Below are positions 4,574 through 62,560 of a DNA stretch of 64,000 nucleotides, piece after piece. Made by a program: the position numbers and the translations under genes. Source of the stretch: Sycon ciliatum (Eukaryota; Porifera; Calcarea; Leucosolenida; Sycettidae). How positions within the stretch are numbered: the first letter of the stretch is position 1; each line of letters starts with the position of its first letter. Where the stretch lies: positions 80,758,199 to 80,822,198 of the forward strand of contig NC_088643.1 of the NCBI RefSeq assembly GCF_964019385.1. The letters are read 5' to 3'. Below the pieces are notes generated by a model that made no database searches, had not been told where the DNA came from, and was given only the letters and a program-made list of their open reading frames with translations.

Positions 4574-5134
4574 GGCTGCGTTTACACGACAACGATTGAA
4601 AACGATTTGTGTTTACACGACAACGAAGTAGGACCTAAACGGAACGAAATCGTTGCGTTTACTGCTATCGTTTACACGACAACGCCCGAAAACGATACCT
4701 AAACGGAACGAAATGTATTAATGGAAACGCACTTCAAAGTGTGTTTTGAAACGTTTTCAAAACGTTTTCAAAACGTTTTCGTTCTCGTGTAAACGGTGAA
4801 AACAGTGAAAACAAGAGTACATGAATTTCATGTACTCTTGGTGAAAACGATTGGAAACGGAGCGCGGTCATGGAAACCATTCCGCGCGGGACTATATTTC
4901 GCGGGAAATACCTGACCTTTGCGACCACCAGTCGTACTAACTCCAACTAACGTGTTACTTCCCGCCCTTGCGCCAAGCCAGCACGTGCTAACTCCAGCCT
5001 GATCGCCCGTTTTCCGTTTTCGTGTGAACGGTTCAAAACGATTTGCCGTTCTCGTGTAAACGGTTTGAAAACGATTCGAGGCCAGCCCGTTTTCGTTCCG
5101 TTTCGTTTCGTTTCGTCTCCGTGTAAACGCAGCC
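4574..5134. mobile_element. MITE with TTA target duplication (PIF/Harbinger-like)
   Basis: A 561-bp non-coding element with terminal inverted repeats beginning GGCTGCGTTTACAC and ending GTGTAAACGCAGCC. TTA lies at 4,571-4,573 and again at 5,135-5,137, the 3-bp duplication typical of PIF/Harbinger transposons. The interior is made of many short direct and inverted copies of AACGA, AAAACG and GTTTACACGA motifs. It carries a nested 29-bp palindromic insertion at 4,812-4,840. Confidence 0.75.
4812..4840. mobile_element. Ultra-short palindromic insertion (CAAGAGT type), 29 bp
   Basis: A 29-bp near-perfect palindrome starting CAAGAGTACATGAA and ending TTCATGTACTCTTG, flanked on both sides by GTGAAAA (4,805-4,811 and 4,841-4,847). 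The termini match the ~300-bp CAAGAG MITEs elsewhere in the window. It sits inside the MITE at 4,574-5,134, so it inserted later. Confidence 0.7.
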
Positions 5135-7874: not shown

Positions 7875-10800
7875 TCAAAAACGATCCGGGGCTCTGACTA
7901 CGCGCCCAGAACGCGTTATCTCCTGCTGCCGTGGTGGTGGTAACGGTGCTGACGGTTCATACGCTGGCTGCTGAGGGACGATAGCAGGTTGAGCGGTATC
8001 TGCAAGCCCAGGAGCCACGTCCTGTGACGATACTTCTAACGGCACTAACCTTTGGATCGGCCTCAACAGAGTACTGGTACTCAACTTAACCTTGGCAACA
8101 CGACGCTTACCATCTCGACCAGGGAATAACTCGATGATCCGTCCCAAACGCCAGAACTGTTTGCGCTTGGTATCATCGAGAACAAAGACAACATCACCCA
8201 CAGCTAAAGGGCGCGACATGGTCTGTTGGTGTTTGTTCAACTGACTTAGGTACTCCACCTCCCAACGATTCTTGACATGCTCCAGTGTCCGACTGAGGTA
8301 ACGCAATCTCGATGACATCTGCGCAGCGTCCAGGGTACCTGCTGGCTTCTCTGACGACATCCAGATGTCACCCATCATCATCGCAGGGGTTACTGGTGGC
8401 TCATCCAGGCTATCAGACACATACGTTAGCGGACGACTATTCACCACTGCTTCAACCTCATACAAGAGGGTCGCAAGCTCCTGGACCTTCAGAAACGCTG
8501 TTCCCATTACCTTTTTCAAGGCACTCTTCACTGTACCAACCATTCGCTCATAGAAGCCTCCGTGCCATGGTGCAGCTGGAGGATTGAACATCCATGGCAC
8601 ACCCAGTTTGTCAGATGCCGCCTTGAACGTTGTAGCGTTGTCAGACCTGATCCGAGACGGCAAACTACGTCTCGCGACAAACTTCCGAAATGCCATCAAG
8701 AATGACTCGGTACTTAAACTATCGACCACCTCCAAGTGAACTGCTCTGGTGGTGGCACACACAAACAATGCTATCCATACCTTCGGAGATGACTCACCAC
8801 GGCGCACGTACAACGGACCAGCATAGTCGATGCCGGTAGTTGCGAACGGCCTCTCGTGAACAACTCGGTCTTCCGGCAGCGGCGGGCAGACTTCTGAGGC
8901 AGCCTTAGCCTTGTAGCGGCGGCATGTAACACATCGCTGAGTAATGTTGCGTAGCGCCCGTCGACCACCGATAATCCAGAATTTCTGACGGATGAACGAC
9001 AAGACTCCTTCTACACCTTGGTGCATCCTTTCAACATGCATTTTCTCCAACAGCAACTCGGTCAGATGATGTTTGCCTAACAGGACTGGGTGCTTGGCTC
9101 CATACGCCAACTCGCTGTGCTGAAGTCGTCCCCCGGCTCTGAGCACTCCATGCTCATCCAGAAACGGTGCAAGCTGATACACCTTCGACCCAGGCTTCAC
9201 TGGTTGACCTTGCTTGATCAGCTCAAGATCCTCAGCGAAACATGCGGCTTGAACGATGCGGTACAATACGTTGTCTGCTGCAAAATAGAGTTCAGCACGA
9301 GGCTCAGTGTGCTTCCACTGCAACATCCGAGTCACCATGCCCTGTGCCCTCGACCATTTACTGAATCGGAGCCACCATTCCTTATCAGATTCTCGACTAC
9401 AGGTGGTGGCTGACACTCGTACTTCTACACTGGACTCATCTGTAGCTGCGGTTGAGGATGCGGTGGGCCAGTCATTGGGCTCCGTGATCCAGGTTGGTCC
9501 GCCCCTCCAGAACGGACTACGGATCTGCTGTGCACTACTCCCACGCGACGGTAAATCTGCTGGGTTGTGAAGGCCTGGGCAATGGTTCCACACAATGCCG
9601 ACCTTCTTCGATATCTCTTGGACTTGACTGACGCGGTTAGCCACAAATGTTTTCCATTTGTACGATGGATTACTGATCCAATGAACGGTAGTGAGACTGT
9701 CAGTCCAGCCATAGACTTGCGTGACGGTCACACGCAGCTCCTTCACCACAAACTCAGCGTAGCGAGCCGCTAGACATACTGCTTGTAACTCAAGGCGGGC
9801 TAACGTGGGTGGAGACACTGGTACCACTTTGGCCTTGGCAAATACCAAGTGCGACTGTCCATTGACGACTGCATACAAACAACATCCAAACGCTTTCTCA
9901 CTGGCATCGGCGAAGGCATGAAGCGCAATCGGCGTGTCAAGATTGCAGCAAATCCAACGTGGTATGTCAATGCTCACCACTTCGGCCAACTCTCCCCACC
10001 ATTGCGCGCATGCGGCTGCGATGCCATCAGGCAACTTATCATCCCAGTCGCCTCCGACTTTCCAGGCTTGCTGTAGCAGTATCTTTCCGGGCACAACTGC
10101 CGGTGCTGCTAGACCTAGCGGATCAAACACTGACGCAACACACTTGAGGAGGGATCGCCGGGTCCAAACAGACGGCCTATCGGACTCGCCTAGCGCTGCT
10201 ATGCTGAGCAAGTCATCACTGGTTTTCCATTTCAGACCGAGAACTTTATCTCCGGCCTCTGGATCGCACGGGATTTCGTTGCCTCGCCACTTGCGTAACT
10301 CCATGCCAGCATCCGTAAGCACACGCACGCTGAACTCTTGCATCTCCTTAGCTTCCGAGGCATTTGAGACACTAGAGACCAAATCGTCAACGTAGAAACT
10401 CGTGAGCAAGAGATCAATACGATCTCGCTCTTTGGGTGCAGACAACGCCCGTAGCTCCTTCAAGTGATGCTGAATCACCGCAGTAAGCATGTATGGCGAG
10501 CAGTTTACGCCAAATGGCAGTTTCGTTAGCCTCCAGGTTAACAGTTCATCGCTGTCGCTTCGACCGGGCCACAAGAAACGCAGGTACGGACGGTCTTCGG
10601 GATTAACCGCGACCATGAAGAAAGCCTTGCGGATGTCCGCTTGCAGCGCGCTCTTATATTCACGGAACCGTAATAGCATACCTGCGAGACTCGGCAATAG
10701 CGACGGTCCAGGGTCAACCATGTCGTTCAACGACTTGCCATCTGGCGCCGTCGCCGAGGCATTGAACACCACTCTTAACTTCGTGGTTGCAGCGTGCTCG

Positions 10801-12791: not shown

Positions 12792-12802
12792 GCTCGCTCC
12801 TA

Positions 12803-12819
12803 TCCTGGCGTGGTCGCCA
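12803..12819 (-). promoter_or_regulatory. Primer-binding site of the BEL element
   Basis: On the minus strand TGGCGACCACGCCAGGA lies 2 nt downstream of the 5' LTR. It begins TGG, complementary to the CCA end of a tRNA, as expected of a reverse-transcription primer site. The tRNA identity was not determined. Confidence 0.7.
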
Positions 12820-12821
12820 AA

Positions 12822-13161
12822 TGTTGTGAACCCTGCAAGTTTCTCTAAATTGTCAGGATCGTACGACCACACGGCACGAGGACAACTCTTTTCCTTTACA
12901 CAGTATATTTCACTTCATCTGATAATTAACAATGAACACTAATAACACCAGCTATTTATAGCATGCAAAAACAGCGTACATGCAAAACATAAGCAGATAA
13001 AACTGGACATAACAGCGTATACAGCAAAACGCACACAACGCATATAGCGTATGCCATGCAGCAACATCAGCGGTACGGCGGAGTCGAAATACAACATTTC
13101 AACGAATACAATGCCATAAGCGCGAAGGCCTTTCCCAATTGAGAACTGGTGGTTTACAACA
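12822..13161 (-). repeat. BEL/Pao 5' LTR
   Basis: 340 bp and apparently identical to the 3' LTR. It should hold the promoter for the element. The Pol frame remains open for 17 codons inside this LTR without an ATG. Confidence 0.92.
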
Positions 13162-13205: not shown

Positions 13206-14358
13206 TCTTCTCATTCTGCCACACTTGCTGTCTCCGAGTGTCATCTGTAGACAACCTGTCTGTTTCTCCCAGTTTTTCCCCTTTTTCTCTGTATCATTTT
13301 GTATGTTATAATTTCCGCGGATTCCAGTTTTTCTCCCTTCATTATAATTTAAGGTGGGACTATGCCTTCGCGGACCGGCATCGGCAAACGGGACGTAACT
13401 TCAGTCTCCCTCATTGGAATTGCACACAATTTTCTGTGCTTTCTTCTAACATATCACCAAGAGTACATAACCCCCCAGAGTGTGCAACGCCTGATCCAGC
13501 TCTGCATAGGGTCTTGGTCGAGCGGAATCGGATCTTTGCGTCATAATACCGTACACATCTGAGGGGAACCCGGGGAGTCGCGGGTGCTCTTGGATCAAAA
13601 ACAATGGTACCCTGCCTCGAGACCGGCCTTGCGCTGGTGTGGAGTGTACGCATGACATCAGAAGATCCGATTCCGCTCGACCAAGACCCTATGCAGAGCT
13701 GGATCGGCGTTGCACACTCTGGGGGGTTATGTACTCTTGATATCACACTGCACTCTGAGCACATGCCAATGAACCAAACTGGTCGCTCTATGTACAAATT
13801 AGAAATTCTTCGAAAAATCAAAAAAAAATGCATTCTGAAAATTCTGTTTCGAAAAGACCAAACATTTGCCTCCCTTTGTCTTTATAAACTTGCTTCCACG
13901 CACCCTCTTCTTGCCCGACATCAGCAGCATCTTTGTATCCTTGTGCAAAAAATCTTCCTAGCCCAAGTCCCGAAACATATTGCCAAGTACAACTGGTTTG
14001 TTACCACTAGACCAACACGCAATGCCTTATCACTGCCCCGAGCTAGTTCCTCTCTGTTTTTGAAATCCCCTTTCTTCTCAGCATACTCCCTTTGGTCTAA
14101 CCTGCCTACTAGCATTAAGACATGCCAGGATATCAGGAAATTCACAGTCCAGCTTTCCACACTGTCTCATCCGAAGTGATCCCATGTATTATTAATGTGC
14201 CTCCCTTTCTTTTTCTCTCCCTATCTCCTTTCCCTCTCTGACAGCATCTTTCTTTTTTTTCCCTTTTTAGCTTGCCGTGGTTGGCTATCACCTGACCTCT
14301 CATGTTTATTGGCAGTCTTCGGACGGGCCAGGAGATGTTGAATAAATAAATAAATAAA
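13206..14358 (+). mobile_element. 5'-truncated CR1/L2-like LINE inserted in repeat X
   Basis: The insertion is bounded by TTCCCC at 13,200-13,205 and 14,359-14,364; repeat X reads continuously if it is removed. From about 13,765 to 14,179 a plus-strand frame encodes a LINE C-terminus (MYKLEILRKIKKKCILKIL, then SPFFSAYSLWSNLPTSIK). It resembles the C-terminus of the LINE at 0.3-0.8 kb (SPFFSSYSTWLQLPPSVR). The 3' end has the conserved CCGTGGTTGGCTA segment and a (TAAA)n tail ending at 14,358. The left 250 bp could not be assigned to a known LINE part. A CAAGAG MITE is nested at 13,458-13,739. Confidence 0.75.
13458..13739. mobile_element. CAAGAG-family MITE, subfamily B (282 bp)
   Basis: Starts CAAGAGTACATAACC and ends GGTTATGTACTCTTG, flanked by ATATCAC on both sides (13,451-13,457 and 13,740-13,746). 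Inverted repeats extend inward (CAGAGTGTGCAACGCC against GGCGTTGCACACTCTG, then an inverted GAGCGGAATCGGATCTT segment). Non-coding. Nested in the LINE fragment. Confidence 0.85.
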
Positions 14359-15167
14359 TTCCCCCGATACACTTCGCATATATACTCATTCCCTTCATGG
14401 TACCGTACTCTTGATGGTACGGGACAGGTACGGGATAGCGCCAGACATGTCGATGGCACAAACAAACAAAAATATTGTGGCCAGCTGTCTTTGCTGGTAC
14501 GGTACAGTACGGGACAGATACGGGATAGCGCCAGGCGTGACACAAACAAACAAACACACAAACAAACACCAAACGAGAGAGCTTGGAAGCTCAGGGCCCT
14601 GCGCTATGCTTTGTTGCCTAGCTCATCGTGCATGTTGTTAGAGCTGATGGAAATGCTTTTTCCTTTGATTAGCTACATCATTGTTTTGCAAAAACGTTTC
14701 AATGAGATACTGAAGTACAAGTAACGTCTTCTGCATAGCTATGGGACCGGCGCTGACTCTGCCGATGACGGGCGTTCTGGAGTCGACGGGATGTCTGTCC
14801 TGACGTTTCCTGGGACCGGCGCTGACTCTGCCGATCACGGGCGTTCTTCTTCTTATTATTATTATAATACTGACGGCAACTAACATCCATTCTGATTGCA
14901 TTTACTCGTCTCCCTACTTCGTATTTCTTTCCAGAAAATCTCCCCATGCAGCAGGGAGTCGTTTACATAATATGACTCCCTGCTATACATCTACATGACT
15001 GACTTGTCAGTTTGAGCACTCTGGCAAGATACGTTCGGGCCTGATTGGAAATTTTTATTTTCATTGCTATCAGGTTCGGCCTCATTTTCTCTGTGCTGCG
15101 CTGATGAGTTCAAAAAGAACGAAACAGCATGCTGTCCGCAGATTGAGTGACTGTATATACGTTATAA
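14359..15167 (+). repeat. Mosaic repeat X, second block
   Basis: Continuation of repeat X after the LINE insertion: CGATACACTTCGCATATA, then GATAGCGCCAGGCGTGACAC with CAAA tracts, CGAGAGAGCTTGGAAGC, GATCACGGGCGTTCT and ACTGACGGCAACTAACATCC. It contains a short palindrome, CAGGGAGTCG...GACTCCCTG (about 14,954-14,984), also present in two other X copies. A short unassigned stretch (15,010-15,150) precedes the MITE. Confidence 0.65.
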
Positions 15168-15470
15168 CAAGAGTACATAAACAAGAGTGTGCAACTCCCT
15201 ATCTCTTCTGCACAATCTGCAGATACCCCCGCCCACGGCGGAATTTTTTGTTGACGTCACCTTTTTTCAGGGAAACGCGGACTTTGCCGCAGAGCAGTGT
15301 GAGAGCACGTGCTGGGCACCGACCTTGTAGTGCAAGCCCCGCCAAGTGCACGAGGGAAACCTCTCCGAAAGGCTCGCAGCGCGTGCGTCGTCGAAAAGAT
15401 TACGTCAACAAAAAATTCCGCCGTGGGCCAACCCATCCGCGAGTTGCACACTCTTGTTTATCTACTCTTG
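15168..15470. mobile_element. CAAGAG-family MITE, subfamily A (303 bp)
   Basis: Starts CAAGAGTACATAAACAAGAG and ends CTCTTGTTTATCTACTCTTG, flanked by GTTATAA (15,161-15,167 and 15,471-15,477). The empty site survives in the other X copies as ACGTTATAATTATTATG (near 6,921 and 7,400). The interior is clearly alike to the copy at 46,469-46,772. Confidence 0.87.
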
Positions 15471-15484
15471 GTTATAATTATTAT

Positions 15485-16351
15485 CAAGAGTACATAACCC
15501 CCCAGAGTGTGCAACGCCGATCCAGCTCTGTGTAGGGTCGAGCGGAATCGGATCTTCTGATGTCATGCGTACACTTCACACCAGCCGGTCTCGAGGCAGG
15601 GCACCATTGTTTTTGATCCAAGAGTACCCGCGACTTCCCGGGTTCCCCTCGAATGTGTACGGTATTAGTGAGGTTTTGCATTCCGAATTTCGGTTCGGCG
15701 TTCTTCGGTCATTTGTCGAACATCAAAATGTCGAATTTTCGCTCCAACGTTTGTTTTGCAAGTCGAAAATGATGTGTTTTCATTTCGTGAGCCCCAGCAT
15801 CAGCAACGTCCTGTCCCGTGCTCCTTTTCTTGCTGATTCCAACGAACTTTGATCGCCCAAAGAGTCGAGGGCCAAACCTGCCTCCTCAGTCGCCTCAGAA
15901 AAACCAACTCCATGGCCAAGTCACATTTTATGCGTATCGCCATAGTCTTTTCAGCCACACAGATGACGGTGAGGACACTCCAGGCGATAGAGAGTAGACA
16001 GGCAGTGGAGAGGAGCAATCAGAAGTAGCTGGCGATGCTGATGCGCCCAAGACGCCTGCGAAGCGATGCCGAGATAAGAAACCTCTTTGAATAAATCACG
16101 CGCTAGCGCTCTTCCACAAGAAAATTCATCCGAAAAATATTTTCGGCAAAGTGAGCTTTTTCCGAACAAACATGCCGAATCTTCGTGTGCATTTTCGACC
16201 TCGCTCCCGCGTGCCGAATCTTTTTGCCGAATTTCGGAATGCAAAACCTCACTAATATGACGCAAAGATCCGATTCCGCTCGACCAAGACCCTACATGCC
16301 TATGCAGAGCTGGATCAGGCATTGCACACTCTGGGGGGTTATGTACTCTTG
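15485..16351. mobile_element. CAAGAG-family MITE, subfamily B, enlarged by a nested element
   Basis: 867 bp. Outer ends match the 282-bp copy at 13,458 (CAAGAGTACATAACC...GGTTATGTACTCTTG). Flanks are TTATTAT and TTATTAA, matching 6 of 7. The extra length is an inner inverted-repeat element at about 15,668-16,254 with ends TAGTGAGGTTTTGCATTCC and complement. The corresponding site is uninterrupted in the 13,458 copy. Confidence 0.78.
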
Positions 16352-16845
16352 TTATTAATATTATGCTATCGGTCTACATGCGATTTCCGGGCTGGTCGAC
16401 AGGCGGCCCAGCCAGCCTGCTAGTGGGATCTCGGCCTCGCACACAAATCCACACAAAATTTAATGTTACTGCACTGAATGCATCCCCCCCATACACTTCG
16501 CATATATACTCATTCTCTTGATGGTACCGTACTCTTGATGGTACGGGACAGGTACGGGATAGCGCCAGGCATGTCGATGGCACAAACAAACAAAAATATT
16601 GTGGCCAGCTGTCTTTGCTGGTACGGTACAGTACGGGATAGATACAGGATAGCGCCAGGCGTGACACAAACAAACAAACACACAAACAAACACCAAATTA
16701 AAGCTGTGTGGACCCTGGCTAGCGCCAGACGTTACTGAAGTAACGTCTTCTGCATAGCTACGGGAATTAAAGCTGTGTGGACCCTGGCTAGCGCCAGACG
16801 TTACTGAAGTAACGTCTTCTGCATAGCTACGGGAATCATCGCATA
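16352..16845 (+). repeat. Mosaic repeat X, third block with 69-bp tandem pair
   Basis: Continues X (GCTATCGG...CTCGCACACAAATCC, CGCATATATACTCATTCTC, GATAGCGCCAGGCGTG). It ends in two tandem 69-bp units at 16,697-16,835 starting ATTAAAGCTGTGTGGACCC. The same pair ends the X copy at 62,135-62,272, so this is probably one terminus of X. Confidence 0.7.
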
Positions 16846-16976
16846 ATTCGAGGCAAATTGCATACGAATCGCATAAAATTGGAATAATCCGCCTGTTCCC
16901 ATAAAATTCCATTCAGTTGTACCAAGAGTACGGTTTATGAATTACACTTCGGAGCTCCGGCTTCGAATGTGACAGT

Positions 16977-17648
16977 GTGTTCCTGGTTGCAGTGCATGTG
17001 CCGGGTGCCAGCAACACGACCGCAGATTACCTCTCCCGTCATCTACTGGTGGACAGCAGCGATTGGAAGCTGGACAGCGACCTGTTTCACTTGATTGTGA
17101 CGCACGAGGGTCCACTTCTCTGCGATTTGTTCGCATCGAGACACAACAGCCAACTTCCCCAGTATGTCAGCTGGTATCCGGACCCGGACGCAGTAGCAGT
17201 GGATGCGCTTTCGCTGCCCAGCCACATGTGGGAGGACGGCTATCTCTTTCCCCCGATAGCATTAGTCAGCCGTTGTCTCCAGTTCATCCAGTACCACCAA
17301 ATTGCCAATGCCGTACTAGTAGCACCAGCATGGAAGGGTCAGGCGTATTATCCTCAGCTGTTGTCCATGTTACGGAGCCACCCGTGGCGGCTGCCGGAGA
17401 TACAGGATCCCGTGTTGGGTCCATTCGGCGAATCACATCCGATGGAAGCCAACCGGCTGCAACTAGCCGTCTGGCCACTATCCGGGAGGCCGCACGAAGT
17501 CGCGGCTTTTCAGCACACGCTTCCCATCTATGGGTTTCATCGGGGCGCTCATCAACCCAGTCCAGCTACGAGTCGGCCTGGAACATCTGGATTCGCTGGT
17601 GTCAGCGGGAATCGCTTGATCCCTTGGAAGCTGATGAAGTGCGGGTAG
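16977..17648 (+). pseudogene. C-terminal RNase H part of a DIRS-like polyprotein (partial)
   Basis: A frame without an ATG start encodes VHVPGASNTTADYLSRHL, the conserved last RNase H motif of DIRS and Ngaro polyproteins. It is followed by a typical linker (LFHLIVTHEGPLLCDLFAS, then LPQYVSWYPDPDAVAVDAL and YLFPPIALVSR). The N-terminal RNase H and the reverse transcriptase are missing, so this is a truncated piece. It overlaps the recombinase frame in another phase, as in intact DIRS elements. The first 57 bp are repeated inverted at 19,060-19,128. Confidence 0.75.
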
Positions 17649-18481
17649 CCAACTTTCTAGCTTCCCAATTCGAGAGCGGCAAGCAGTACCGAACACTGAA
17701 TGTCTATCGTTCAGCACTTTCGTCCACGTTACTGGTACGTGCAGATGAGTTGCCCATTGGCCAGTCCCCTACAGTTCGGCGCGTCATGGCCGGTGTCTAT
17801 AACGAGCGCCCTCCGCAACCGCGCTACAGTGAGACCTGGTGTGTTGCATCTGTCCTGCAATACCTTGCCAGTCTTGATAATCAATCTGTCTCACTTGGCC
17901 AGCTGTCTGAGAAGCTGGTGATGCTCATCGCCCTGGCCAGAGCCCCAAGAGTCTCGACGTTGCATGCACTCTCCATACAGAGTATGCGTAGGAAGCCGGA
18001 TGGCGTGCAGTTCATCTTGACACGCCCCACTGAGACCCAAAGGGTAGGCTCTGCACCAAAAGAGTTTGTGCTGCCTCGGTTTGCACAGGCGTCTACACTC
18101 TGCCCAGTGGTCTGTCTGGATGAGTATTTGTCCCGCACTATTTCTTTGCGGTCTGCTGCTGACACTGGGCTCTTTGTATCAACTGTTACTCGCCCTCCTC
18201 ATCAGGTTGTCAGCTCTGCTACGCTTGCTCGCTGGCTAAAGACCGTGCTCAAGGCAGCTGGCATCTCGAGCACATTTACAGCGCATTCAACTCGTGGTGC
18301 TTCCACAACGGCGGCTACCGTTGCTGGTGTCACGATGGCTGAGGTACTCGCCGCAGCTGATTGGAGTGGTCAGCATACTTTCATTGAGCACTATTATCGT
18401 CCCAGTTCACAGCTGTTCACGGATGCTGTCCTCTCGTCTGGCAATGAGATAACCTCTCATCATGACTCTCGTCAATCATGA
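17063..18481 (+). CDS. DIRS-like tyrosine recombinase
   Basis: The open frame begins at a TTG and the first ATG is at 17,330, so the true start is unknown. The C-terminal 320 residues form a tyrosine recombinase: SAM-like N-domain (about 165-250: YESAWNIWIRWCQRESLDPL and VANFLASQFESG), then a catalytic domain with Arg in ALARAPRVSTL (near 296), the H-x-x-R box in FTAHSTRGAS (His 408, Arg 411), ADW (434) and the nucleophile Tyr in EHYYRP (444-445). Such enzymes join the circular DNA of DIRS retroelements into the genome without target duplication. The catalytic set is complete although the rest of the element is missing. Confidence 0.85.
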   Translation: MEAGQRPVSLDCDARGSTSLRFVRIETQQPTSPVCQLVSGPGRSSSGCAFAAQPHVGGRLSLSPDSISQPLSPVHPVPPNCQCRTSSTSMEGSGVLSSAVVHVTEPPVAAAGDTGSRVGSIRRITSDGSQPAATSRLATIREAARSRGFSAHASHLWVSSGRSSTQSSYESAWNIWIRWCQRESLDPLEADEVRVANFLASQFESGKQYRTLNVYRSALSSTLLVRADELPIGQSPTVRRVMAGVYNERPPQPRYSETWCVASVLQYLASLDNQSVSLGQLSEKLVMLIALARAPRVSTLHALSIQSMRRKPDGVQFILTRPTETQRVGSAPKEFVLPRFAQASTLCPVVCLDEYLSRTISLRSAADTGLFVSTVTRPPHQVVSSATLARWLKTVLKAAGISSTFTAHSTRGASTTAATVAGVTMAEVLAAADWSGQHTFIEHYYRPSSQLFTDAVLSSGNEITSHHDSRQS

Positions 18482-19198
18482 CTCTGTTCACTCTAGCTCT
18501 CTCTCTGGCTCACTTTCGTGCAATATTTGCTCTGCGGACAACTTTGGCTCAGTTGTCGTGCTTTCCTCTGCTTTGGTCTTTATGCAAGTTTGGACCATTC
18601 CTGGTATGACCCGTTCTGTTTTCCATTAGGGTCCTGTGTAGTTACTAGTATATAAATATAGCACTGTCTTGTAGACTTGTTGTCTGTTGTACCTAATGGC
18701 CAACGCAGGCTGGGTTCCATCAGGCTTGTGCTCTGGGTATATCACTTTGAACATCACACTGTCACATTCGAAGCCGGAGCTCCGAAGTGTAATTGAAGAT
18801 TCCGCAAGGACTGCTTGCAGTCTGATGTGGAATCTGAGTTACACGAGGAGTGGAGGAAGAGAATGTGACAGTGTGTTCCCTCCCAGTTGTCAGTGATGTG
18901 TGTGAATAGACTTATGCCCTCCCACACTGTCACATACATGTAAGTCAAGAGCTCCGAAAAAGGCCAAAGAAGGTCTGGAGTTCGGGAGTAATATGGTGGC
19001 GGAGTTTGAAAATTTTCTTTGAATTGCTATGGTTTTAGGAGCGAATTAGGCCAAACACAGAGGTAATCTGCGGTCGTGTTGCTGGCACCCGGCACATGCA
19101 CTGCAACCAGGAACACACTGTCACATTCTCTGCCTCCACTCCTCGTGTAACTCAGATTCCACATCAGACTGCAAGCAGTCCTTGCGGAATCTTCAATT

Positions 19199-20143
19199 AT
19201 GTACTCTTGGTTGTTGCTGGAGCAGGAGTCGTCTCTTGGCGACTCTCTGACTCAGCTCCGGACGGTCAAGGCGACTGTTCGGGCCGAGAAGCGGAGCGTG
19301 TTCAAGTCTATGGCTGACGCTCTTCGCTCGGATAACCGGGAGCTGGCCCCTGTTCTCGACCTGGCCTCAGAAAAGGGTGCATCCAGCTGGCTGACCTGCC
19401 GCCCCCTCAGCCGCCATGGTTTCACACTCAGCAAGGGAGATTTCCGGGATGGCCTGTGCCTCCGGTACGGCTGGACACCTCCTCGGCTCCCAAGCCTCTG
19501 CGTGTGCAGTAAGCCGCTGAGTGTGAGTCACGCCCTGTCGTGCCCGTTTGGTGGCTTCCCGACGCTGCGACATAACGAGGTGAGGGACATCACCGCCAGA
19601 GCTCTAAGGCAGGTCGCTCACAACGTGACAGTGGAACCCCACCTCCAGCCCGTCACCGGAGAGGCCTTCCGCCATCGCACAGCTGTCACGGAGGAGCAAG
19701 CTCGGCTGGACGTTGCGGCTAGTGGTGTGTGGGGTGGCCGATTCGAGCGCATCTTTATTGATGTACGGGTGTTCAACCCTTTTGCGTCTTCGAATCGTGC
19801 CACCTCCCTCGCTGCTAGCTACAGACGCCATGAACAGGAAAAGCGCCGGAAGTACGAGGAGCGAGTACGTGAAGTTGAGCATGCCTCCTTCGTGCCCGTT
19901 GTGCTTTCTGCCTCTGGTGGCTATGGCAAGCATGCCAATGCTCTTTTCACGCGGATCGCCTCTCTCCTGGCTGAGAAGAGTAAGGAGCCATACGGGCAGA
20001 TTATCTCCTTGCTGCGCAGCCGCCTTGGGTTTGCCCTGGTGCGTTGTGGTGCTATGTGCCTGCGTGGCTCAAGGAGCATGTTTGTTCCTGCTGTGCCTGA
20101 GTCCCCTGCTGTGCTAGTGGCGGCGGAGGCACGCATCCAGTGA
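19199..20143 (+). CDS. Orphan restriction-like endonuclease module (C-terminal part of a retroelement protein)
   Basis: A 314-residue open frame. The core has CVCSKPLSVSHALSC (Cys 101, Cys 103, His 111, Cys 115), then LRHNEVRD (124-131) and ARLDVAASGVWGGRFE with IFIDVRVFNP (Asp 171, Asp 188). A Cys-Cys-His-Cys knuckle, an RHN motif and a PD-(D/E)XK-like pair match the layout of the restriction-like endonuclease of R2/NeSL-type retrotransposons; that assignment is inference. No reverse transcriptase precedes it. The ATG at 19,199 lies in the right end of the neighbouring CAAGAG element, so the natural N-terminus is lost. The C-terminus (LLAEKSKEPYGQIISLLRSR) is intact. Two decayed relatives lie at 39.1-40.6 kb. 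Confidence 0.65.
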   Translation: MYSWLLLEQESSLGDSLTQLRTVKATVRAEKRSVFKSMADALRSDNRELAPVLDLASEKGASSWLTCRPLSRHGFTLSKGDFRDGLCLRYGWTPPRLPSLCVCSKPLSVSHALSCPFGGFPTLRHNEVRDITARALRQVAHNVTVEPHLQPVTGEAFRHRTAVTEEQARLDVAASGVWGGRFERIFIDVRVFNPFASSNRATSLAASYRRHEQEKRRKYEERVREVEHASFVPVVLSASGGYGKHANALFTRIASLLAEKSKEPYGQIISLLRSRLGFALVRCGAMCLRGSRSMFVPAVPESPAVLVAAEARIQ

Positions 20144-21018
20144 ACCTGCACAGTGCAGTGATCCTACTGAGTGACAGATTCTGTAAATACTGTATCTGAT
20201 GATTCGTTTTATGTGTTGATTCTTCACAAAATGTGTTATTTTGCCCGTACAAGAGGCTCAAAGAGTGAAAAAAAAAAAAAAAAAACCATGAGTACATGTA
20301 CTCTTGGTTGTACTAGTACAAGTACAAGTACAAGTAGATGCACCAGGAAGTCGTAGGTTTACGACTCCCTTGAGAACATGTCCAGTCCACTACAATCAGT
20401 GACCAGGGTGACGGTCGTAGCTAGGTCGGACAGTGCGTTGACCTGTTGCTACTACAGTACAACGCCCTCTACAAAACAATTCACCTGTTATTTTGCACAG
20501 AACCATCATATACATGTACAATCATTAGCAGCATATTTGAGCATAATGCGGCATAATATGATAACTTTTAGCATAAAAATAGCATAATTCTGCAATTTTT
20601 TCAGCAATGCGAAAAGCATAATTTCACGAAAATATTAGCATAATCTGTCAAGGCCTAACACACACACCTGAAAATTGGCAGCACACTACTCCTTGCTGTC
20701 AGCGAATTGTGAAAATATAGCAGTCAGGTCTGCAGCAGTGATTGTGGCACCGCAACTCCAGTCAACTGAACTGAACTCTGAACTGACTGAAGTGGCACTG
20801 ACCAGACCGCCGGATTATGAAATCAAACTAAATGTACGTGGATTCGTTTCAAAAAGTCACTGCCGGTCCAGTGCCGGAGGCGGAATTCAAGTGCCGGATT
20901 AAAAGATGTAGGAATCGAACGAAAAAAATCTGTTTCGTCAGAAAGTGCGCCGGTTGGCAAGGGTTCCGGATAAACAAGTGCCGGATTAGAGAGGGACGAC
21001 TGTATTGACTTCGTACTT

Positions 21019-22532: not shown

Positions 22533-27638
<5,106 letters not shown>

Positions 27639-36243: not shown

Positions 36244-37147
36244 TTGTACTAGTTAGGAAATGGTGGTGGCCATGTATTATAGATTGGAAGCCGTGAGAGA
36301 TATTCTTTACTGTGGACCTGCAGTGCTCATGGGTGGCTGCAGCAACTGCACTGGCGGCAGTACTCGAGGAAGATACTTGAAATACTCTTGTAAGACTAAA
36401 GTGCTCGTCCAGCTAGCTCGTCAGGTTCAGATAGTACTACTGTATCTTCCTATTCTGTTGATCGTACGGTTTACATCATAATCTGTACCATGACACACTC
36501 GTTTCGATGCCTAGGCGCCTGTGGAGTGGTGCTGATCTATCTCAGTATGCTGAGCAACTACACTGGGAAACAACTACTCCGTACTATTGCTCATGAGACG
36601 CCGCCATCATGACTGCCAATTTTCCAAGATACTGTAGAAAACGTCGAAAGAAACAAGATCGATCGTAGAGCATGCAACTGATGCTTGGCACAAACAAAAA
36701 TCTTTTCTCAGCTTTCTGCTGCAGACGCGCAGATCTTTCATCTCAACCAGGGAGTAGTACAATACAGTATTGTACTACTCCCTGATCTCAACGACGTCGA
36801 CATGTGCATCAAGCATGCTGCCTCCCGCCAATTCCGGGCCACTCGCGTACCACCAAGAATAGAATCATACAACATTGTAGTAACCGTACTCCATTTCAAG
36901 ACACAGTGCATGCACTACAATAGTGACAGGACATGGACAGTGCTGTGTGAGCCTCCGAAAACGGCAACCTGACCTGTTCTCTTTGGATTCGGAAACGTTT
37001 TGTCATGCGTATGGCGCATATATGGCATAATTCTCATGTGAACCAAAGGCGTTGATACTTTTGATGCCATAATTACATTTCTGTGCCTGAGCCATTTTCA
37101 TCACAACGTGACAGTGCACTCGCTTCTCCATAAAAGCTGAGGCCCTG

Positions 37148-37187
<40 letters not shown>

Positions 37188-37390
37188 GCCTAGCCTGCAT
37201 GCTCCTGAATTTCTGCCAACCCAGAACTACTTTAAAAAATTATTTTTGTAATGTAGGCAGAAGCGAGGGGTATACAGTGCTTGTATTGTACTTGTACCAC
37301 TACTACTAGTGATACCAAAGAAGATAGACTCTAATCACTAAATCAGGGAGTCCCTGACTCTAATTTATACTAGTATGTCATTAAAAAATG
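36244..37390. other. Intergenic region upstream of the RhoGAP gene
   Basis: No gene recognised. Contains the 37-bp palindromic insertion at 36,748-36,784 and an (AC)n tract at about 37,148-37,185. The segment directly after 36,243 may be promoter or upstream-exon sequence of the minus-strand RhoGAP gene. Confidence 0.45.
36748..36784. mobile_element. Ultra-short palindromic insertion (CAGGGAGT type), 37 bp
   Basis: Palindrome CAGGGAGTAGTACAAT...ATTGTACTACTCCCTG. Flanked on both sides by ATCTCAAC (36,740-36,747 and 36,785-36,792), an exact 8-bp repeat. Confidence 0.7.
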
Positions 37391-37405
37391 ACCTACTCAT
37401 TATAC

Positions 37406-37425
37406 CAAGAGTTCATGAACTCTTG
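37406..37425. mobile_element. Ultra-short palindromic insertion (CAAGAGT type), 20 bp
   Basis: The sequence is a perfect 20-bp palindrome, CAAGAGTTCATGAACTCTTG, flanked on both sides by ATTATAC (37,399-37,405 and 37,426-37,432). There is no room for anything but the two termini. The shortest of the set. Confidence 0.7.
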
Positions 37426-38080
37426 ATTATACCGGTACTAGTACATGATTGTATTATTATACCTCACTCCATATACACCCACAGTCTTTGGGATGCCCTC
37501 CCTTAGTGGTGTATACATATATATCTCCATATCCCCCCTAAAGTAAATTAGCAGTAGTTGTCGGCGAGGAACAAGCCATTAGGAGGCCACACACGGTGAA
37601 TAATGAGAGGTATAACTATTAATATAACAAAGGGACCTCGTACTCATAATTATTATAATTATACATGTCACCAGTTATAAAAAACTCGGCTTCGCCTCGG
37701 TTTTTATACTGGTGTATACTAGTATATCTCTATAATTATACACTCGGTCCCTTGTTATAATCTATACCTATAGCCTTAGGGGTAACGTACTATTGGTAAC
37801 ATGTTAACAGTAGACCATAGCTCAGGGAACCAGGGAGAAATACATGTACCGGTATTACAAAGTGCCGGTATTATAGTTTTCTACTCCTGTATACAGTGTA
37901 TTGTATTCCCAGTGGCCTGAACCTTGATTGGCTTGAACCGACAAACCGCGCAACAACGTGACAAACAACAACAACAACACTTCATCTTTCAGCCCCAAGA
38001 TGTGTGATGGACCAGGACGGTATCGGCTTCTGGTGAAGCAAGCTGGCGCTGGATAGGAACAAGAGTTCTGTTTGTAGGAC

Positions 38081-38112
38081 CAAGAGTACATAACCCAGTT
38101 TATCTACTCTTG
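38081..38112. mobile_element. Ultra-short palindromic insertion (CAAGAGT type), 32 bp
   Basis: Starts CAAGAGTACATAACC and ends TTTATCTACTCTTG, flanked by GTAGGAC at 38,074-38,080 and 38,113-38,119. One end matches MITE subfamily B and the other subfamily A, as if only the outer ends of a longer element were left. Confidence 0.78.
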
Positions 38113-38760: not shown

Positions 38761-38787
38761 CAGGGAGTGGTATTTTACGACTCCCTG
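38761..38787. mobile_element. Ultra-short palindromic insertion (CAGGGAGT type), 27 bp
   Basis: Starts CAGGGAGTGGTA and ends TACGACTCCCTG, flanked by GTTTGAC at 38,754-38,760 and 38,788-38,794 (exact 7-bp repeat). Confidence 0.75.
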
Positions 38788-41713: not shown

Positions 41714-41746
41714 CAAGAGTAACCTCCCTGGGAGCTTATACTCTTG
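41714..41746. mobile_element. Ultra-short palindromic insertion (CAAGAGT type), 33 bp
   Basis: Starts CAAGAGTAACCTCCC and ends GGGAGCTTATACTCTTG. Flanks CTATTAG and CTACTAG agree at 6 of 7 positions. Confidence 0.55.
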
Positions 41747-46200: not shown

Positions 46201-49200
46201 GTACTACAGCGGCACGTGTACTACAAAACTATGCAAACAATCTATTTGCACTTGTTATTAGTTTAGTGAATAAGTGTATTTCCTTTACGGGTGTTTCCTT
46301 GCAAATATGGCATTTGGGTAGGTCCCACAATGTGATAATTGGGTGTGAACACTGCAACCACGGAAATAAAGTGACCAACATCCACTGCTCTGTACAGACA
46401 TTAAACGACCGCTGCAAAGCAGCAGCGCACTACCATGATTACTGAAGAGTTGCTATGCTTACTTGCACCAAGAGTAGATAAACAAGAGTGTGCAACTCCG
46501 GATCTCTTCTGCACAATCTGCAGATACCCCTGCCCGCGGCGAAATGTTTTGTTGACGTCAACTTTTTTCAGAAGAACGTGCATTTTGCCCCAGAAGAGTG
46601 TGAGAGCACGTGCTGGGCACCGACTTTGTAACGTAAAGCCCGGCCAAGTGCACGAGGCAAAACTTTCCAAAAGACTCGCAGCGCGTGCATCGTTGAAAAG
46701 ATTACGTCAACAAAAAATTCCGCCGCGGGCCAACCCATCCCGGAGTTGCACACTCTTGTTTATCTACTCTTGCTTGCACATATAACATCATGCCCCACCC
46801 CACACCCCGCACTTATATTCACATGCACGCACGCACATACACATCATTAGCCCATAGTTTTAAGATAATACTATAATAGAAAGGTTCCCTTTTCCATTCC
46901 CCAAACCAGTAAATATATACTATAAAGGGTTTGGAAATGCACAAGTACAAGAAAAGAGAGCGTGTCAGTGCAGTCGGCTTAACACATACACACGTACACT
47001 GGAGTGACGGGATTACAGGTTACAATAACTCTTGCCTTAAAGGCCGTTGATGTTCTATAAACTACAGCCTTGTTCAACGAAATCCAACCTCCTGAGCAGG
47101 TGACTATTCTGACTCAGTGCACAGCCAGCATACACAGTGCAAAGGGTTGTGCTCTGACCCAGTGCACAGCCAGTATACACAGTGCAAAGGGCTGTGCTCT
47201 GACCCAGTGCACAGCCAGCATACACAGTGCAAAGGGCTGTGCTCTGACCCAGTGCACAGCCAGCATACACAGTGCAAAGGGCTCTGCAGCATGAGACTCA
47301 TGATGAGGTCAGATTTCAGCGAGCGCAACCATACAGGAAAACACATCAACCAAACGACAAGTCGCAGACACAAGCTACATCACTGCACATAAATTAAAAA
47401 AAGGCCATGAAACCGACCTGCTCTGTTGAATATTCTTGCGATGGATTTGAAGCCATGAGCGGAAACAGGAGGTGTTCATGTGTAAGCAGGTCACCAGAAG
47501 TGAGAAAACCTGCAGCGTGCACAAAGTTACAAATGCCATACTATTGTGGAGCCTCATACAGTGCCACACACACACACACATGGTGTCTGTCGACGCATCA
47601 CCCACAGATGCCGTAACCAGGCTGAAACAGCAGGGGTGAGTTAGTACTTACTGTAGTGTTTGCATCCACATCACTTCACACATTGTAATGATTGTATACA
47701 AGTCATCATGATAATGTACAGCGGTGACATTCATCCAAAATTGTTCCGCTACCTTTTTGAAAGCTGAATTTTGGCCCCATAAAGCCTCATAACCCACCTA
47801 AAATTCGAAAATTTTGGGTTTTGCACCTGCTTCTCCTTGAATTTTGCAATGGTTCAAGTACACCTATTCTATTTTACATTGAAGTACCGAAAAGAATATT
47901 CGCGTAGTGTACAGTCATGCAGTATTGTACAAGTATTACTACAGTCGTCGCCAAAAAATCCGGCCAATGCCATGGAAACAGTGGTACATGGTATGGTACG
48001 CGTTCACCAGCGGTACTTCATCCTTCATGGTGGCATGGTGGCATGCGTGCATTTACAGCCAGTGCCAGCAGAGCACTGAACAGTCTGCGCTGCACTCTGC
48101 CTGCTGCAGTCGTCGGGTCGAGCACTGCACTGAGTGTATGCAGGCCTGGCAGCAGGGCATGTGCCGTGCAACAGGCTAGTAGTAGATCTACTAGCAGTGG
48201 CAGTGCATGCGGCTTATGTACAGCTACCGGTAGCTAGCATAGCATTGGCTGGATTTTTTGGCGACGACTGTACATGCAAGCTGCAGAACTTAGTTTTTAG
48301 CCTGATTCTTAGTGGTATATACATGTACATGTACACTCCGAAAAACACAACACAGCACATCAAAGACTACTGTAAAAGCCATATACCGTATATTCTCTAT
48401 TATACAAAGGCACACAATGAAAACCTTGGCAAATTTATTCCGTTGTGACTCCGAGTTTCATGGCTGAACCAATCATCAGACAACGATAATGGAATAGGAG
48501 GCAGCGCTGGTATATCTAAGTGGAGAGAGGTGTGATAATACGATAGCGAGAGGAGTAATCGCGTGAATGTATACAGGGACGGGCTATTTCAGAGGCAGAT
48601 GCAGTAGGCGCAGGTCTAGCACTAACAAGTACGCGCTTAATGTCGCTCATACACCACACACACACACACACATACTAACACGCACACACATAGTAACACG
48701 CACACACACATACACACATACACGCACACACTAACACACACATACACCCACCCACAACACCCTAACTTGCACACGGGCGCACACACACACAGGACACCCA
48801 CCCACCCACAACACCCTAACTCGCACACGCACAAACACACGCACACACGCATATACACACACCTATAGACACATGTCCACACGTATACACAGGCATCTGC
48901 GTTCGTATGACAAGTCTAAGCGCACACAAACTCCTGCAATCACGCGTCAAAAAACCCGCAGCGGTCATAGCTGTCTATGTAATAGGGGTGGCCAGCAGAA
49001 ACTTGCGCTGGTGAGGGCATTTAGATACCAGCTCACTTCTCTTGTTTAGGGAGGTAGCTTTTGAAGCTTTCAGGATGTGGAACTTTTCGGTTAAGCATAG
49101 GCCACACTTCTTGCTGATGTTACTGTACGAAGGTGCTCTATCCTTGATCTCCCATCTGATGTCGAATCCGCGGTTCTCGTTTTTCAGATCCCAGATGTGC

Positions 49201-61200: not shown

Positions 61201-62560
61201 GGGTAATACGACACCGTCTCCCGTACCGTACCGTACCATCAAACACAGCTGGCCACATACAGCTGCCCGCAATATTCAAATAGGGCTTTCAAACGCAAGA
61301 TAATAACGTGAAGCAACTTGGAAGAATGGGTATGAATGCGAAGTGTATGGGGGAATGCATGTAGGGCGATAGTGCGGGTTCGAATCCCAGGACATGCCTG
61401 AAAAAAATAGGAGAATTGAAAAATTTATAACATCCTATGCTTTTTTGCCGTCAGATACGGATAGCGCCAGGCGTGACACAAACAAACAAACAAACACACA
61501 AACAAACAAATACCAAACGAGAGAGCTTGGAAGCTCAGGGCCCTACGCTATGCTTTTTTGCCTTGATGACCTAGACAAAAAAAAGCATAGGGATGTTATA
61601 AATTCTTTAAAAAATTCCTTTTTTTTAGACATAACCTGGGATTCGAACCCGCACTATCGCGCGCCCTGCATTCATCCCCCGATGCACTTCGCATACATAC
61701 TAATTCTTCCAAGTTGTTTCACATTGTGATCTTGCATTTGAAAGCCCTATTTGAGTTATATGCATTGTGGCCAGCCGTCTTTGATGGCACGGTACGGTAG
61801 GGGATAGGGACGGGACAGGTACGATCGAGGGTAATACGACACCGCCTCCCGTACCGTACCGTACCATCAAACACAGCTGGCCACATACAGCTTCCCGCAA
61901 TATTCAAATAGGGCTTTCAAACGCAAGATAATAACGTAACGCAACTTGGAAGAATGGGTATGAATGCGAAGTGTATGGGGGAATGCATGTAGGGCGATAG
62001 TGCGGGTTCGAATCCCAGGATATGCCTGAAAAAAAGGAGAATTGAAAAATTTATAACATCCTATGCTTTTTTGCCGTCAGATACGGATAGCGCCAGGCGT
62101 GACACAAACAAACAAACACACAAACAAACACCAAATTAAAGCTGTGTGGACCCTGGCTAGCGCCAGACGTTACTGAAGTAACGTCTTCTGCATAGCTACG
62201 GGAATTAAAGCTGTGTGGACCCTGGCTAGCGCCAGACGTTACTGAAGTAACGTCTTCTGCATAGCTACGGGAATAAATAAGTTGTAGTTCCTTGGTCCTC
62301 ATTTCTTCTTATAAAGTGACCTGAGTTTTCCACTTTGTTCTCTTCCACTCATGGTACATGTATGACGTGTTACCACCGACTACACTAGTCTACAGTCTAC
62401 ACAATCACTCTTTGAATCATTATCACTCGTTCTTGACCTCACCTTTCACGTCCATTGTGGCCATAGGTTGCTCGCCCTTCTTCTTGTCTGATTCATGATT
62501 CGTGGCTTTGCTGCGCTTGCCACCACCCACGGTCTCCCACTTCCCAGCCTGTGACGCCAT
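43218..62560 (-). CDS. TMEM214-like ER membrane protein, multi-exon
   Basis: Exons by position: 62,560-62,443; 59,234-59,056; 58,564-58,502; 58,126-58,033; 57,425-57,294; 56,120-56,038; 55,629-55,521; 55,103-55,007; 54,465-54,364; 52,550-52,511; 52,342-52,232; [47,621-47,602 candidate]; 45,967-45,910; 45,614-45,525; 44,833-44,807; 44,525-44,369; 44,134-44,038; 43,395-43,218. All have AG/GT borders and phases agree, giving about 584 residues (vertebrate TMEM214 is about 690). Matching segments: N-terminal MASQAGKWETVGGGKRSK, LKLLAEYLQDQFANCDPLD, GWRLLVQAICVVQP, HALDRLNTLI and EEVQKQYTTVL. One membrane segment, ISVLFWSLATVLLAVVAADV, lies near the C-terminal third. In vertebrates TMEM214 sits in the ER membrane and has been linked to stress-induced apoptosis; that role here is inference. 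Confidence 0.8.
44698..44717. repeat. Poly-G tract
   Basis: About 18-19 G after a GTGTGTG run, in an intron of the TMEM214-like gene. Confidence 0.9.
45256..45406. mobile_element. TA-flanked MITE (about 150 bp)
   Basis: Inverted ends around TGCTCAATGAAATCCGATC and GATCGGATTTCATTGAGCA with outer TACAG/CTGTA, so TA lies at both ends. Related ends surround the minisatellite at 47.1 kb. Intronic. Confidence 0.55.
46469..46772. mobile_element. CAAGAG-family MITE, subfamily A (304 bp)
   Basis: Starts CAAGAGTAGATAAACAAGAG and ends CTCTTGTTTATCTACTCTTG, flanked by CTTGCAC (46,462-46,468 and 46,773-46,779). The interior closely follows the copy at 15,168-15,470. It lies in an intron of the TMEM214-like gene. 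Confidence 0.88.
47116..47287. repeat. 45-bp minisatellite, nearly four units
   Basis: Units start at 47,116, 47,161, 47,206 and 47,251 (last one partial). Each begins AGTGCACAGCCAGCATACAC; differences are single bases. 45 is divisible by 3, so both strands stay open through the array. It lies between inverted TTCAACGAAATCC-like ends (about 47,068 and 47,330) related to the MITE at 45.3 kb. Confidence 0.88.
47602..47621 (-). CDS. Candidate 20-nt microexon of the TMEM214-like gene
   Basis: Exon 52,342-52,232 ends in phase 0, but the next recognised exon (45,967-45,910) reads correctly only in phase 2, so an exon of length 3n+2 must lie between. On the minus strand GCTGTTTCAG precedes and GTGATG follows a 20-nt piece that solves the phase. 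The encoded residues do not clearly match the family, so this is weak. A GTAAGT donor near 47,652 is another candidate border. Confidence 0.25.
48975..49347 (-). pseudogene. Penelope GIY-YIG endonuclease domain (left arm)
   Basis: About 120 residues: VKTYVGMTATTFKQRYNKH, then STKLSKHIWDLKNENRGF, CGLCLTEKFHILKA, LNKRSELVSKC and a terminal HQRKFLLA. These are the conserved elements of the C-terminal endonuclease of Penelope-like retroelements, which nicks target DNA. The reverse transcriptase is absent, and the frame starts by reading through the opposite arm. Confidence 0.85.
49380..49749 (+). pseudogene. Penelope GIY-YIG endonuclease domain (right arm)
   Basis: The inverted copy of the left-arm domain, with the same residues from YEAHVASNEVKTYVGMT to the stop after LLATPIT. 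No reverse transcriptase part. Confidence 0.85.
51100..51665 (-). pseudogene. Possible decayed coding sequence, unrecognised
   Basis: Minus-strand frames show protein-like composition: RRIKYFEDSSRKQKEDDDGY then DEPFEGDTFIERKRN; DEEFYSDDNLASDW; and IGCKCKNNHWTLLLPQLAQV followed by LSTRMRNIASMSSMQRKQY. Acidic D/E/Y stretches and a CxC segment recall N-termini of some transposase-like proteins. Stops and frame changes separate the pieces. Family not identified. Confidence 0.3.
52634..52936. mobile_element. CAAGAG-family MITE, subfamily C (303 bp)
   Basis: Starts CAAGCGTACATAACCCCC and ends GAGTTATGTACTCTTG, flanked by CTGTTAC (52,627-52,633 and 52,937-52,943). A different interior, with inverted GACAGAATTTCAAGTTGAC segments. 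Intronic. Confidence 0.85.
52994..53454. mobile_element. Tc1/mariner- or pogo-like MITE (461 bp)
   Basis: Ends CAGTAAAACCTGGT and ACCAGG-like CCAGGTTTTACTG, with TA on both sides (52,992-52,993 and 53,455-53,456). The left part repeats GGTCGTTAA/GGTCGCTTAA motifs. A short open frame inside is not convincing. Confidence 0.7.
53555..53745. repeat. Paired poly-G and poly-C tracts
   Basis: GT repeat followed by about 17 G at 53,564-53,580, and about 18 C at 53,724-53,741, in the same intron about 150 bp apart. Confidence 0.85.
53825..54205. mobile_element. hAT-like MITE (381 bp)
   Basis: Ends AGTGGTGAAACGAATATTCG and a complementary CGTTTCACCACCAC. TAAAACAT lies on both sides (53,817-53,824 and 54,206-54,213), an 8-bp duplication. 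The interior has many GAATATTCG repeats. Intronic. Confidence 0.75.
56583..56700 (-). mobile_element. LINE 3' end with (TAAA)n tail
   Basis: On the minus strand: TTGCCGTGGTTGGCTAACAC, then TGTGCTATGAGATGCTGTAA and (ATAAA)n. Nearly identical to 60,610-60,735. No coding part. Intronic. Confidence 0.7.
58263..58345. repeat. (TC)n and poly-C tract
   Basis: CTCTCT repeats enclose about 20 C, intronic. Source of Ser/Leu/Pro shadow frames. Confidence 0.9.
60610..60735 (+). mobile_element. LINE 3' end with (TAAA)n tail
   Basis: CTTGCCGTGGTTGGCTAACA then GTGCTATGAGATGCTG and (TAAA)n, plus strand. Directly followed by repeat X. Same family as 56,583-56,700. Confidence 0.7.
60736..62275. repeat. Repeat X derivative with two foldback units
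   Basis: Begins with the X module CGAGAGAGCTTGGAAGC and ends with the 69-bp tandem pair (62,135-62,272). Between them lie two foldback units (about 61,008-61,450 and 61,620-62,065). Their arms carry CACTTCGCAT, GTTGTTTCACATTGTGATC, GCCCTATTTGAAT and a GGTACGG/CCGTACC centre. Each arm includes GGTTCGAATCCC, identical to a tRNA B box; an extra half-arm is at 60,780-60,960. It lies in the first intron of the TMEM214-like gene. Confidence 0.7.

Follow-up and report, generated by a model that had tools for sequence, protein, structure and literature searches.

What kind of event leaves behind, in the DNA of a calcareous sponge, a palindrome of only 20 bp that is enclosed by two perfect copies of a 7-bp repeat? 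The question is raised by positions 37406..37425 of a 64,000-nucleotide stretch of the Sycon ciliatum genome (C1:80758199-80822198; hereafter 'the window'), where a window scan finds the sequence CAAGAGTTC(AT)GAACTCTTG between ATTATAC at 37399-37405 and ATTATAC at 37426-37432. A preliminary description of the window had reported five such palindromes with perfect flanking repeats, and had considered them to be insertions with target duplications that contain little more than transposon ends. Both the duplications and the genome-wide counts given below bear out that view. We propose that these 'micropalindromes' are very probably the healed donor sites of excised P-superfamily transposons, a reading for which several signs appear in the sequence itself: target duplications, an arm limit, distinct classes of junction, full-size parents that carry the same ends and, in one such parent, a match to a P transposase.

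According to this scheme, a full-size element would insert and thereby duplicate either 8 bp (the CAGGGAGT family) or 7 bp (the CAAGAGT family) of its target. Its transposase would subsequently cut one strand at the outer end of the element and the other strand approximately 19 nt inside the terminal inverted repeat (TIR), and each side of the break would thus retain a 3' overhang of about 19 nt of transposon sequence. End joining would then link the two overhangs head to head, either in full (19+19, for a total of 38 bp), or after annealing or trimming, which would shorten the product to as little as 14 bp, or with the arms separated by filler that is AT-rich and in part self-templated. The strand geometry with its 19-nt stagger, the repair pathway, and the working of the CAAGAGT family in the same manner are the parts of the scheme that we infer.

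Two families of micropalindromes and their duplications

A scan of the window for palindromes of length 16-120, with outer arms of 8 nt or longer and exact flanking repeats of 6 nt or longer, recovered all five of the palindromes described previously (with sizes of 20-37 bp), and these are the sole matches with exact flanking repeats of 7-8 nt; three additional matches carry 6-nt repeats. In addition to the 20-bp footprint, they comprise a 37-bp footprint at 36748..36784 (an 18-nt arm, A, and a second 18-nt arm, of the CAGGGAGTAGTACAATAC variant) with the 8-bp duplication ATCTCAAC; a 32-bp footprint at 38081..38112 (left arm CAAGAGTACATAACCC, A, and a right arm complementary to CAAGAGTAGATAAAC) with the 7-bp duplication GTAGGAC; a 29-bp footprint at 4812..4840 (CAAGAGTACATGAA-T-TTCATGTACTCTTG) with the 7-bp duplication GTGAAAA; and a 27-bp footprint at 38761..38787, in which an 8-nt left arm is joined to a complete 19-nt right arm (GGTATTTTACGACTCCCTG) within the duplication GTTTGAC. 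That 7-nt repeat can be read as the 8-nt GGTTTGAC, given the loss of one G from a run of GGG. The flanks of a sixth palindrome (41714..41746; 33 bp, a probable CAAGAGT-family footprint) are CTATTAG and CTACTAG and agree at 6 of 7 positions, exactly as had been reported, and those of a 31-bp CAGGGAGT palindrome at 14952..14982 (CCATGCAG and CTATACAT) match at just 5 of 8; sequence resembling the latter palindrome recurs near positions 6890 and 7368.

Two other features of the window may be noted at this point. At 37328-37364, ACTCTAAT is repeated exactly on either side of a 21-bp insert (CACTAAATCAGGGAGTCCCTG), possibly a very short CAGGGAGT footprint with filler that is smaller than the patterns described below would count. 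Two identical 63-bp stretches at 16741-16803 and 62179-62241, which have TAACGTCT/AGACGTTA as their inverted ends and CTGAAG repeats in common, are part of another repeat family.

Across the genome (538 Mb), the pattern CAGGGAGT-N0-30-ACTCCCTG is matched 5,578 times, as compared with 2 matches for a reversed-pattern control, and CAAGAGT-N0-26-ACTCTTG is matched 4,937 times, as compared with 72 for its reversed control; these are counts of exact patterns, and some matches need not be footprints. The exact 38-mer CAGGGAGTCGTAAAATACCGGTATTTTACGACTCCCTG is present in 435 copies (control 0) and the 14-mer CAAGAGTACTCTTG in 193 (control 2).

The flanks of a subset of these matches, drawn mostly from the first part of C1 and deduplicated by their 12-nt flanks only (such that a few lie within related repeats), demonstrate that the excess over controls extends to the flanking repeats and is specific to a single offset in each family. 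At 53 distinct CAGGGAGT sites the 8-nt flanks are identical in 28 cases and differ by at most one mismatch in 40, while an exact repeat is found once at 7 nt (window 38761) and never at 6, 9 or 10 nt. Exact 38-mers account for 35 of those sites (8-nt flanks identical at 23, at most one mismatch at 30); among the remaining 18, five are exact and five have one mismatch. At 38 distinct CAAGAGT sites the 7-nt flanks are identical in 13 cases and within one mismatch in 23, with no exact repeat at 6, 8, 9 or 10 nt. The 14-bp form makes up 21 of these, and the other 17 include seven exact repeats and four with one mismatch; where 14-mer sites were considered separately (n=20), the 7-nt flanks are exact at five and within one mismatch at 11, with none exact at 6, 8 or 9 nt. 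Counting against the footprint reading, 8 of the 53 CAGGGAGT sites and 11 of the 38 CAAGAGT sites lack a duplication at the offset of their family (at least 4 mismatches), although two of the eight (window 38761 and the 56-bp form L082, described below) display a duplication by another reading. The exact repeats of '7-8 bp' described earlier are therefore real, but their length is a trait of the family: 8 bp for CAGGGAGT and 7 bp for CAAGAGT. In one instance (L080), a 38-mer with the duplication AAGAGTAC is nested within a CAAGAGT micropalindrome.

The target motifs are themselves palindromic. In the 8-bp family (40 sites, both orientations) the consensus is T..GT....AC..A, with a core of GT....AC; in the 7-bp family (24 sites, both orientations) it is GTA.TAC, with T2 and A6 found in 42 of 48 readings, and with extra flanking preferences at positions 3-5 outside of the duplication. 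The available portion of PMC4168063 describes a GTANTAC target for Galileo, with duplications of 7 bp and occasionally 8 bp, and palindromic target motifs that extend past the duplication for P and 1360; the target of the CAAGAGT elements is closely similar to that of Galileo.

Arm limits, junctions and empty sites

If the arms are remnants of overhangs, their length should be bounded, which makes the arm limit the key test of the footprint reading, and longer palindromes are indeed much less common. The pattern CAGGGAGT-N31-61 has 454 genome matches (control 0), a 12-fold drop beyond 46 bp relative to N0-30, and CAAGAGT-N27-57 has 1,274 (control 71), a weaker drop of only approximately 4-fold above 40 bp relative to N0-26, with part of these being neighbouring double insertions. 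A tally of 44 CAGGGAGT elements longer than 38 bp was drawn from the N0-30 and N31-61 lists (with 34 of the 50 N31-61 places listed) and compared with only five TIR variants; of its 88 arms, 15 stop at exactly 19 nt, four reach 20-21 nt and none extends further. A 49-bp form at C1:57074-57122, which lies outside of that tally, is a real exception, in that one of its sides retains over 30 nt of the 32-bp TIR. With that exception, the limit of about 19 nt would imply cleavage deep inside the TIR. The arms of CAAGAGT palindromes reach 19 nt as well, in the form of CAAGAGTACATAACCCCCC joined to its own complement (38 bp).

Between and around these limits, the junctions fall into several classes: complete 19+19 joins (the 38-mer); joins through (AT), as at 37406-37425; asymmetric joins of 19+9 (seen as 28-bp forms) and of 8+19 (38761-38787); and two 19-nt arms separated by AT-rich filler. 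In 15 of the 44 longer CAGGGAGT forms, the filler is 77% AT over 253 nt, as compared with 53% in sampled genome DNA. In L082 (C1:20939432-20939487; 56 bp), a copy of 18 nt of an arm lies between two 19-nt arms, with GCAGTGTG on both sides; among footprints longer than 46 bp, it is the one for which a duplication was read. The same 56-bp form is found again at C1:24136266-24136321, 3.2 Mb away, and may represent recurrent self-templated filler, duplication or movement. In another set of loci, the palindromes found at corresponding positions of homologous repeats have different centres (L021 as compared with L022-L024 and L026; ACATGTTTATGT versus ACATGTCTCTGT).

The CAAGAGT junctions were tabulated from 47 sequences (44 of the 50 places listed, after removal of five in homologous flanks and of one that was nested, plus three from the window), with statistics contingent on the TIR variants used, which do not form a complete set. 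Their interiors vary in content and length, with two repeats among them; 12 have an overlap of 0, 12 an overlap of at least 1, and 23 contain filler. Among the filler-free junctions, the 12 of 24 with an overlap of at least 1 are mildly above the roughly 32% expected from a random-join null. Given the 12 with no overlap and the 23 with filler, microhomology as the sole joining rule is unsupported. A second candidate rule, in which the 38-mer would arise from annealed 21-nt overhangs ending in the self-complementary CCGG, was dropped because, in filler-bearing forms in which both arms are complete, each arm ends with ATACC (19 nt), although four of 88 arms do match 20-21 nt.

Paralogous empty sites, for which the preliminary description had suggested a search, were also found. 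When 44 pairs of flanks (joined, minus one duplication) were aligned against approximately 0.2 Mb of sequence, four spanning alignments were obtained, three of which are empty sites. The 38-bp footprint L005:1501-1538 corresponds to a site in the window (26966..27111, plus strand; 121/146 identical) that carries a single CTGACAAG; the site of L014 is matched by L016:1338-1442 (98/105 identical, gap-free and without an insert); and that of L040 by L032:2230-2295 (53/66 identical). The fourth alignment, between L006 and L083, was judged not to be an empty site.

The preliminary description had stated that no described family resembles these insertions. A counterpart does exist, in the excision footprints of the Drosophila P element. 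There, breaks made by excision of P have 3' overhangs of 17 nt of the TIR (PMC5466332), with the transposase cleaving one strand 17 bp inside the 31-bp TIR (PMC7776569), and the repair junctions of P{wa} contain the duplication and up to 17 nt of each TIR, including blunt 17+17 joins (three isolates) as well as (AT)-annealed palindromes, asymmetric trims and fillers (PMC5466332, Table 1). The fly and sponge footprints share an 8-bp duplication on both sides and a palindrome made of both TIR ends. Full blunt joins, (AT)-annealed joins (the junction at 37406..37425 being of the '(AT)' type of Table 1), asymmetric trimming, fillers that are short and templated, and remnants of very small size are likewise common to the two. 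They differ in the arm limit (17 nt in the fly, about 19 here), in their unrelated TIRs, in the animal, and in their setting (a reporter in the fly, natural and genome-wide here); they also differ in that, of the forms seen in the CAGGGAGT family, the exact full-length join is the most frequent. The abundance of the exact 38-mer, far above that of other products seen, is poorly accounted for by a simple blunt join; we assume that complete overhangs were joined recurrently.

Parent elements and a P-type transposase

In longer elements the arm of the 38-mer extends as CAGGGAGTCGTAAAATACC|GGGAGGCGACACG. One such element (L084) is 2,148 bp long, with a perfect 32-bp TIR and GTGCTGAG flanking both sides; it holds no stop-to-stop frame longer than 166 aa, and an ungapped search (at least 10 nt) found no symmetrically placed subterminal inverted repeats within it, such repeats being 11-12 bp long in fly and zebrafish elements (PMC7776569). 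At C1:5909119-5909153, one end of a long element carries a stuttered terminal repeat (CAGGGAGTCGTAAAATAC), which suggests slippage or a second insertion there.

The exact 32-nt TIR occurs 90+83 times in the genome (173 ends). With a 75-nt end as the query, 40 of 220 candidates were scored, of which 38 match over the first 56 nt and two over all 75, each at 100% identity, and the element copies therefore look young. The 100 ends that were listed form 35 pairs, of which 32 span 2,080-2,970 bp (mostly 2.1-2.7 kb) and the remaining three measure 4,910, 6,926 and 8,737 bp. The P-transposase RNase H domain (PF21787) has 44 genome matches, many in long open frames, and one of these 44 (C5:19787239, in a 1,002-aa open frame) falls inside one of the 35 pairs, the 6,926-bp pair at C5:19783693-19790618, as compared with 0.008 matches expected inside pairs. 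A second match, in an open frame of that length and with an equal score, is found 4.3 kb inward from the TIR end at C5:12824075 (0.06 matches being expected by chance within 7 kb of the listed ends), and a third, in a frame of the same length, is located on C11, whereas the listed TIR ends run to C9.

The CAGGGAGT family shows both a P-type transposase between the TIRs (in one parent) and an 8-bp duplication (at the footprints and at L084), and it is for the CAGGGAGT family only that the sequence links micropalindromes to a transposase. With the P superfamily (P, 1360 and Galileo) the CAGGGAGT elements share that transposase domain, in one parent, and a TIR of about 30 bp (32 here), and the two sponge families share with it an 8- or 7-bp duplication and a palindromic GT...AC target, the 7-bp one being close to the GTANTAC given for Galileo in the portion of PMC4168063 cited above. 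They differ in their TIR sequence, and in that 32 of the 35 listed pairs span 2.1-3.0 kb, with the one that was read containing no frame above 166 aa.

For the CAAGAGT family, the window contains several unexcised relatives. These are a 282-bp element at 13458..13739 (the first 30 nt of both ends identical; 7-bp duplication ATATCAC), a 303-bp element at 15168..15470 (7-bp duplication GTTATAA), an 867-bp element at 15485..16351 (TTATTAT/TTATTAA, 6/7) and a 304-bp element at 46469..46772 (7-bp duplication CTTGCAC). No coding CAAGAGT element was recognised among the loci examined. A P family with 839-aa frames (L085; 4.8-kb piece) has four CAAGAG and two CTCTTG words that form no matching-end pair with a duplication, and another with 983-aa frames (L086; a 1.4-kb piece, one side only) has none of the end words. 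Within the window, CAAGAGTAC ends with an exact 7-bp repeat (GTTGTAC) are found 3,384 bp apart at 16923-20306; the interval contains one frame without a Pfam match and one tyrosine-recombinase-like frame (PF00589, just under the cut-off), and was considered as an autonomous CAAGAGT element but set aside owing to the latter. We take that frame to be of the DIRS type, and the interval may represent a CAAGAGT element with a DIRS-like element in its interior, or else have its ends by chance. The window also encodes an uninterrupted 1,665-aa Bel-Pao polyprotein frame (7875-12872, minus strand; Peptidase_A17, RVT_1 and Integrase_H2C2), along with other reverse transcriptases and a PDZ-RhoGAP frame of the SYDE type (C2_SYDE match just under the cut-off).

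Competing explanations and significance

The preliminary description had allowed for either the mobilisation of near-minimal ends or collapse after insertion; the second is close to the reading favoured here, and mobility at such sizes is unsupported. The notion that palindromes of 14-38 bp are themselves mobile, as near-minimal transposons moved in trans, would account for the same 38-mer being present 435 times with an 8-bp duplication (at most one mismatch) at 30 of 35 sites, for the sole flank similarity among the first 15 of its sites being one pair that shares about 40 bp (matching neighbouring palindromes), and for a 56-bp form at two places 3.2 Mb apart. It appears improbable, however, in light of junctions that vary in length and content, arms that differ independently, and 14-bp forms that hold central bases common to both ends and yet have an exact 7-bp duplication at five of 20 sites; moreover, the 38-mer is the very product expected of a full 19+19 join. 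Drosophila P has transposase binding sites internal to the TIR (PMC7776569), and the palindromes have none. Such sites are needed by P. Equally improbable is the narrower version, in which the exact 38-bp palindrome alone is a substrate, its two complete, cleavage-proximal 19-nt arms being synapsed and moved in trans by the P-type transposase; if true, the 38-mer would be among the smallest mobile DNAs in an animal. Abortive gap repair, in which a sister element serves as the template for filling the gap left by precise excision and synthesis halts within the first few nucleotides on both sides, is a known source of internally deleted DNA transposons, would also leave duplications and both ends, and would fit the longer-armed form at C1:57074-57122; it is unlikely all the same, because a broad range of tract lengths would be expected, and instead the arms of both families, whose TIR sequences differ, stop by about 19 nt, with counts falling 12-fold (CAGGGAGT) and about 4-fold (CAAGAGT) above the arm limit.

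Collapsed MITEs of the hAT superfamily are a still more doubtful source. Both CAGGG ends and an 8-bp nTnnnnAn target would be in keeping with hAT as well, and the T2 and A7 of the duplication suit such elements; the assignment to P consequently rests on the transposase and the arm limit. A search for the hAT dimerisation domain had 422 genome candidates, of which 150 matches were scored, and none of the 150 falls in the 35 listed TIR-bounded elements, whereas a P transposase does; we also know of no hAT excision that leaves 19-nt ends. (Six hAT matches lie in 966-aa frames and several in frames of 660-695 aa without stops, and from these frames hAT elements look recently active too.) With MITEs in general, the micropalindromes share short length, inverted ends, target duplications and high copy number, and the 282-304 bp CAAGAGT elements of the window are MITE-like; in the micropalindromes, however, the interiors are junctions rather than one amplified sequence, the recurrent 38-mer excepted, and 14-46 bp is below the usual size of a MITE. 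As for chance, short palindromes are common in intergenic DNA and single copies may have arisen in that manner, but for whole families this explanation is refuted by the control counts (2 and 72 as compared with 5,578 and 4,937) and by duplications that are specific to one offset.

The reading as healed donor sites of excised P-type elements involves a type of scar that is known from Drosophila, with the 19-nt arm and the scale being what is new here. Among the papers listed by literature searches of limited coverage, none concerns thousands of P-type footprints in one genome, and this speaks only weakly for novelty. Annotators should also be warned that palindromes of this sort are possibly not MITEs. 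P-type transposition has been dissected mainly in flies; if the footprint reading holds, the stagger of a P-type transposase outside of Drosophila (predicted to be about 19 nt), the manner in which the germline joins 3' overhangs (blunt, annealed or with templated filler) and the frequency with which elements leave would all be testable from sequence. In the subfamily with the 32-bp TIR, exact 38-mers (435) already outnumber exact element ends (173). The genome of this sponge would then keep thousands of end-defined products of germline break repair, and would constitute a natural archive of how DNA breaks are healed.
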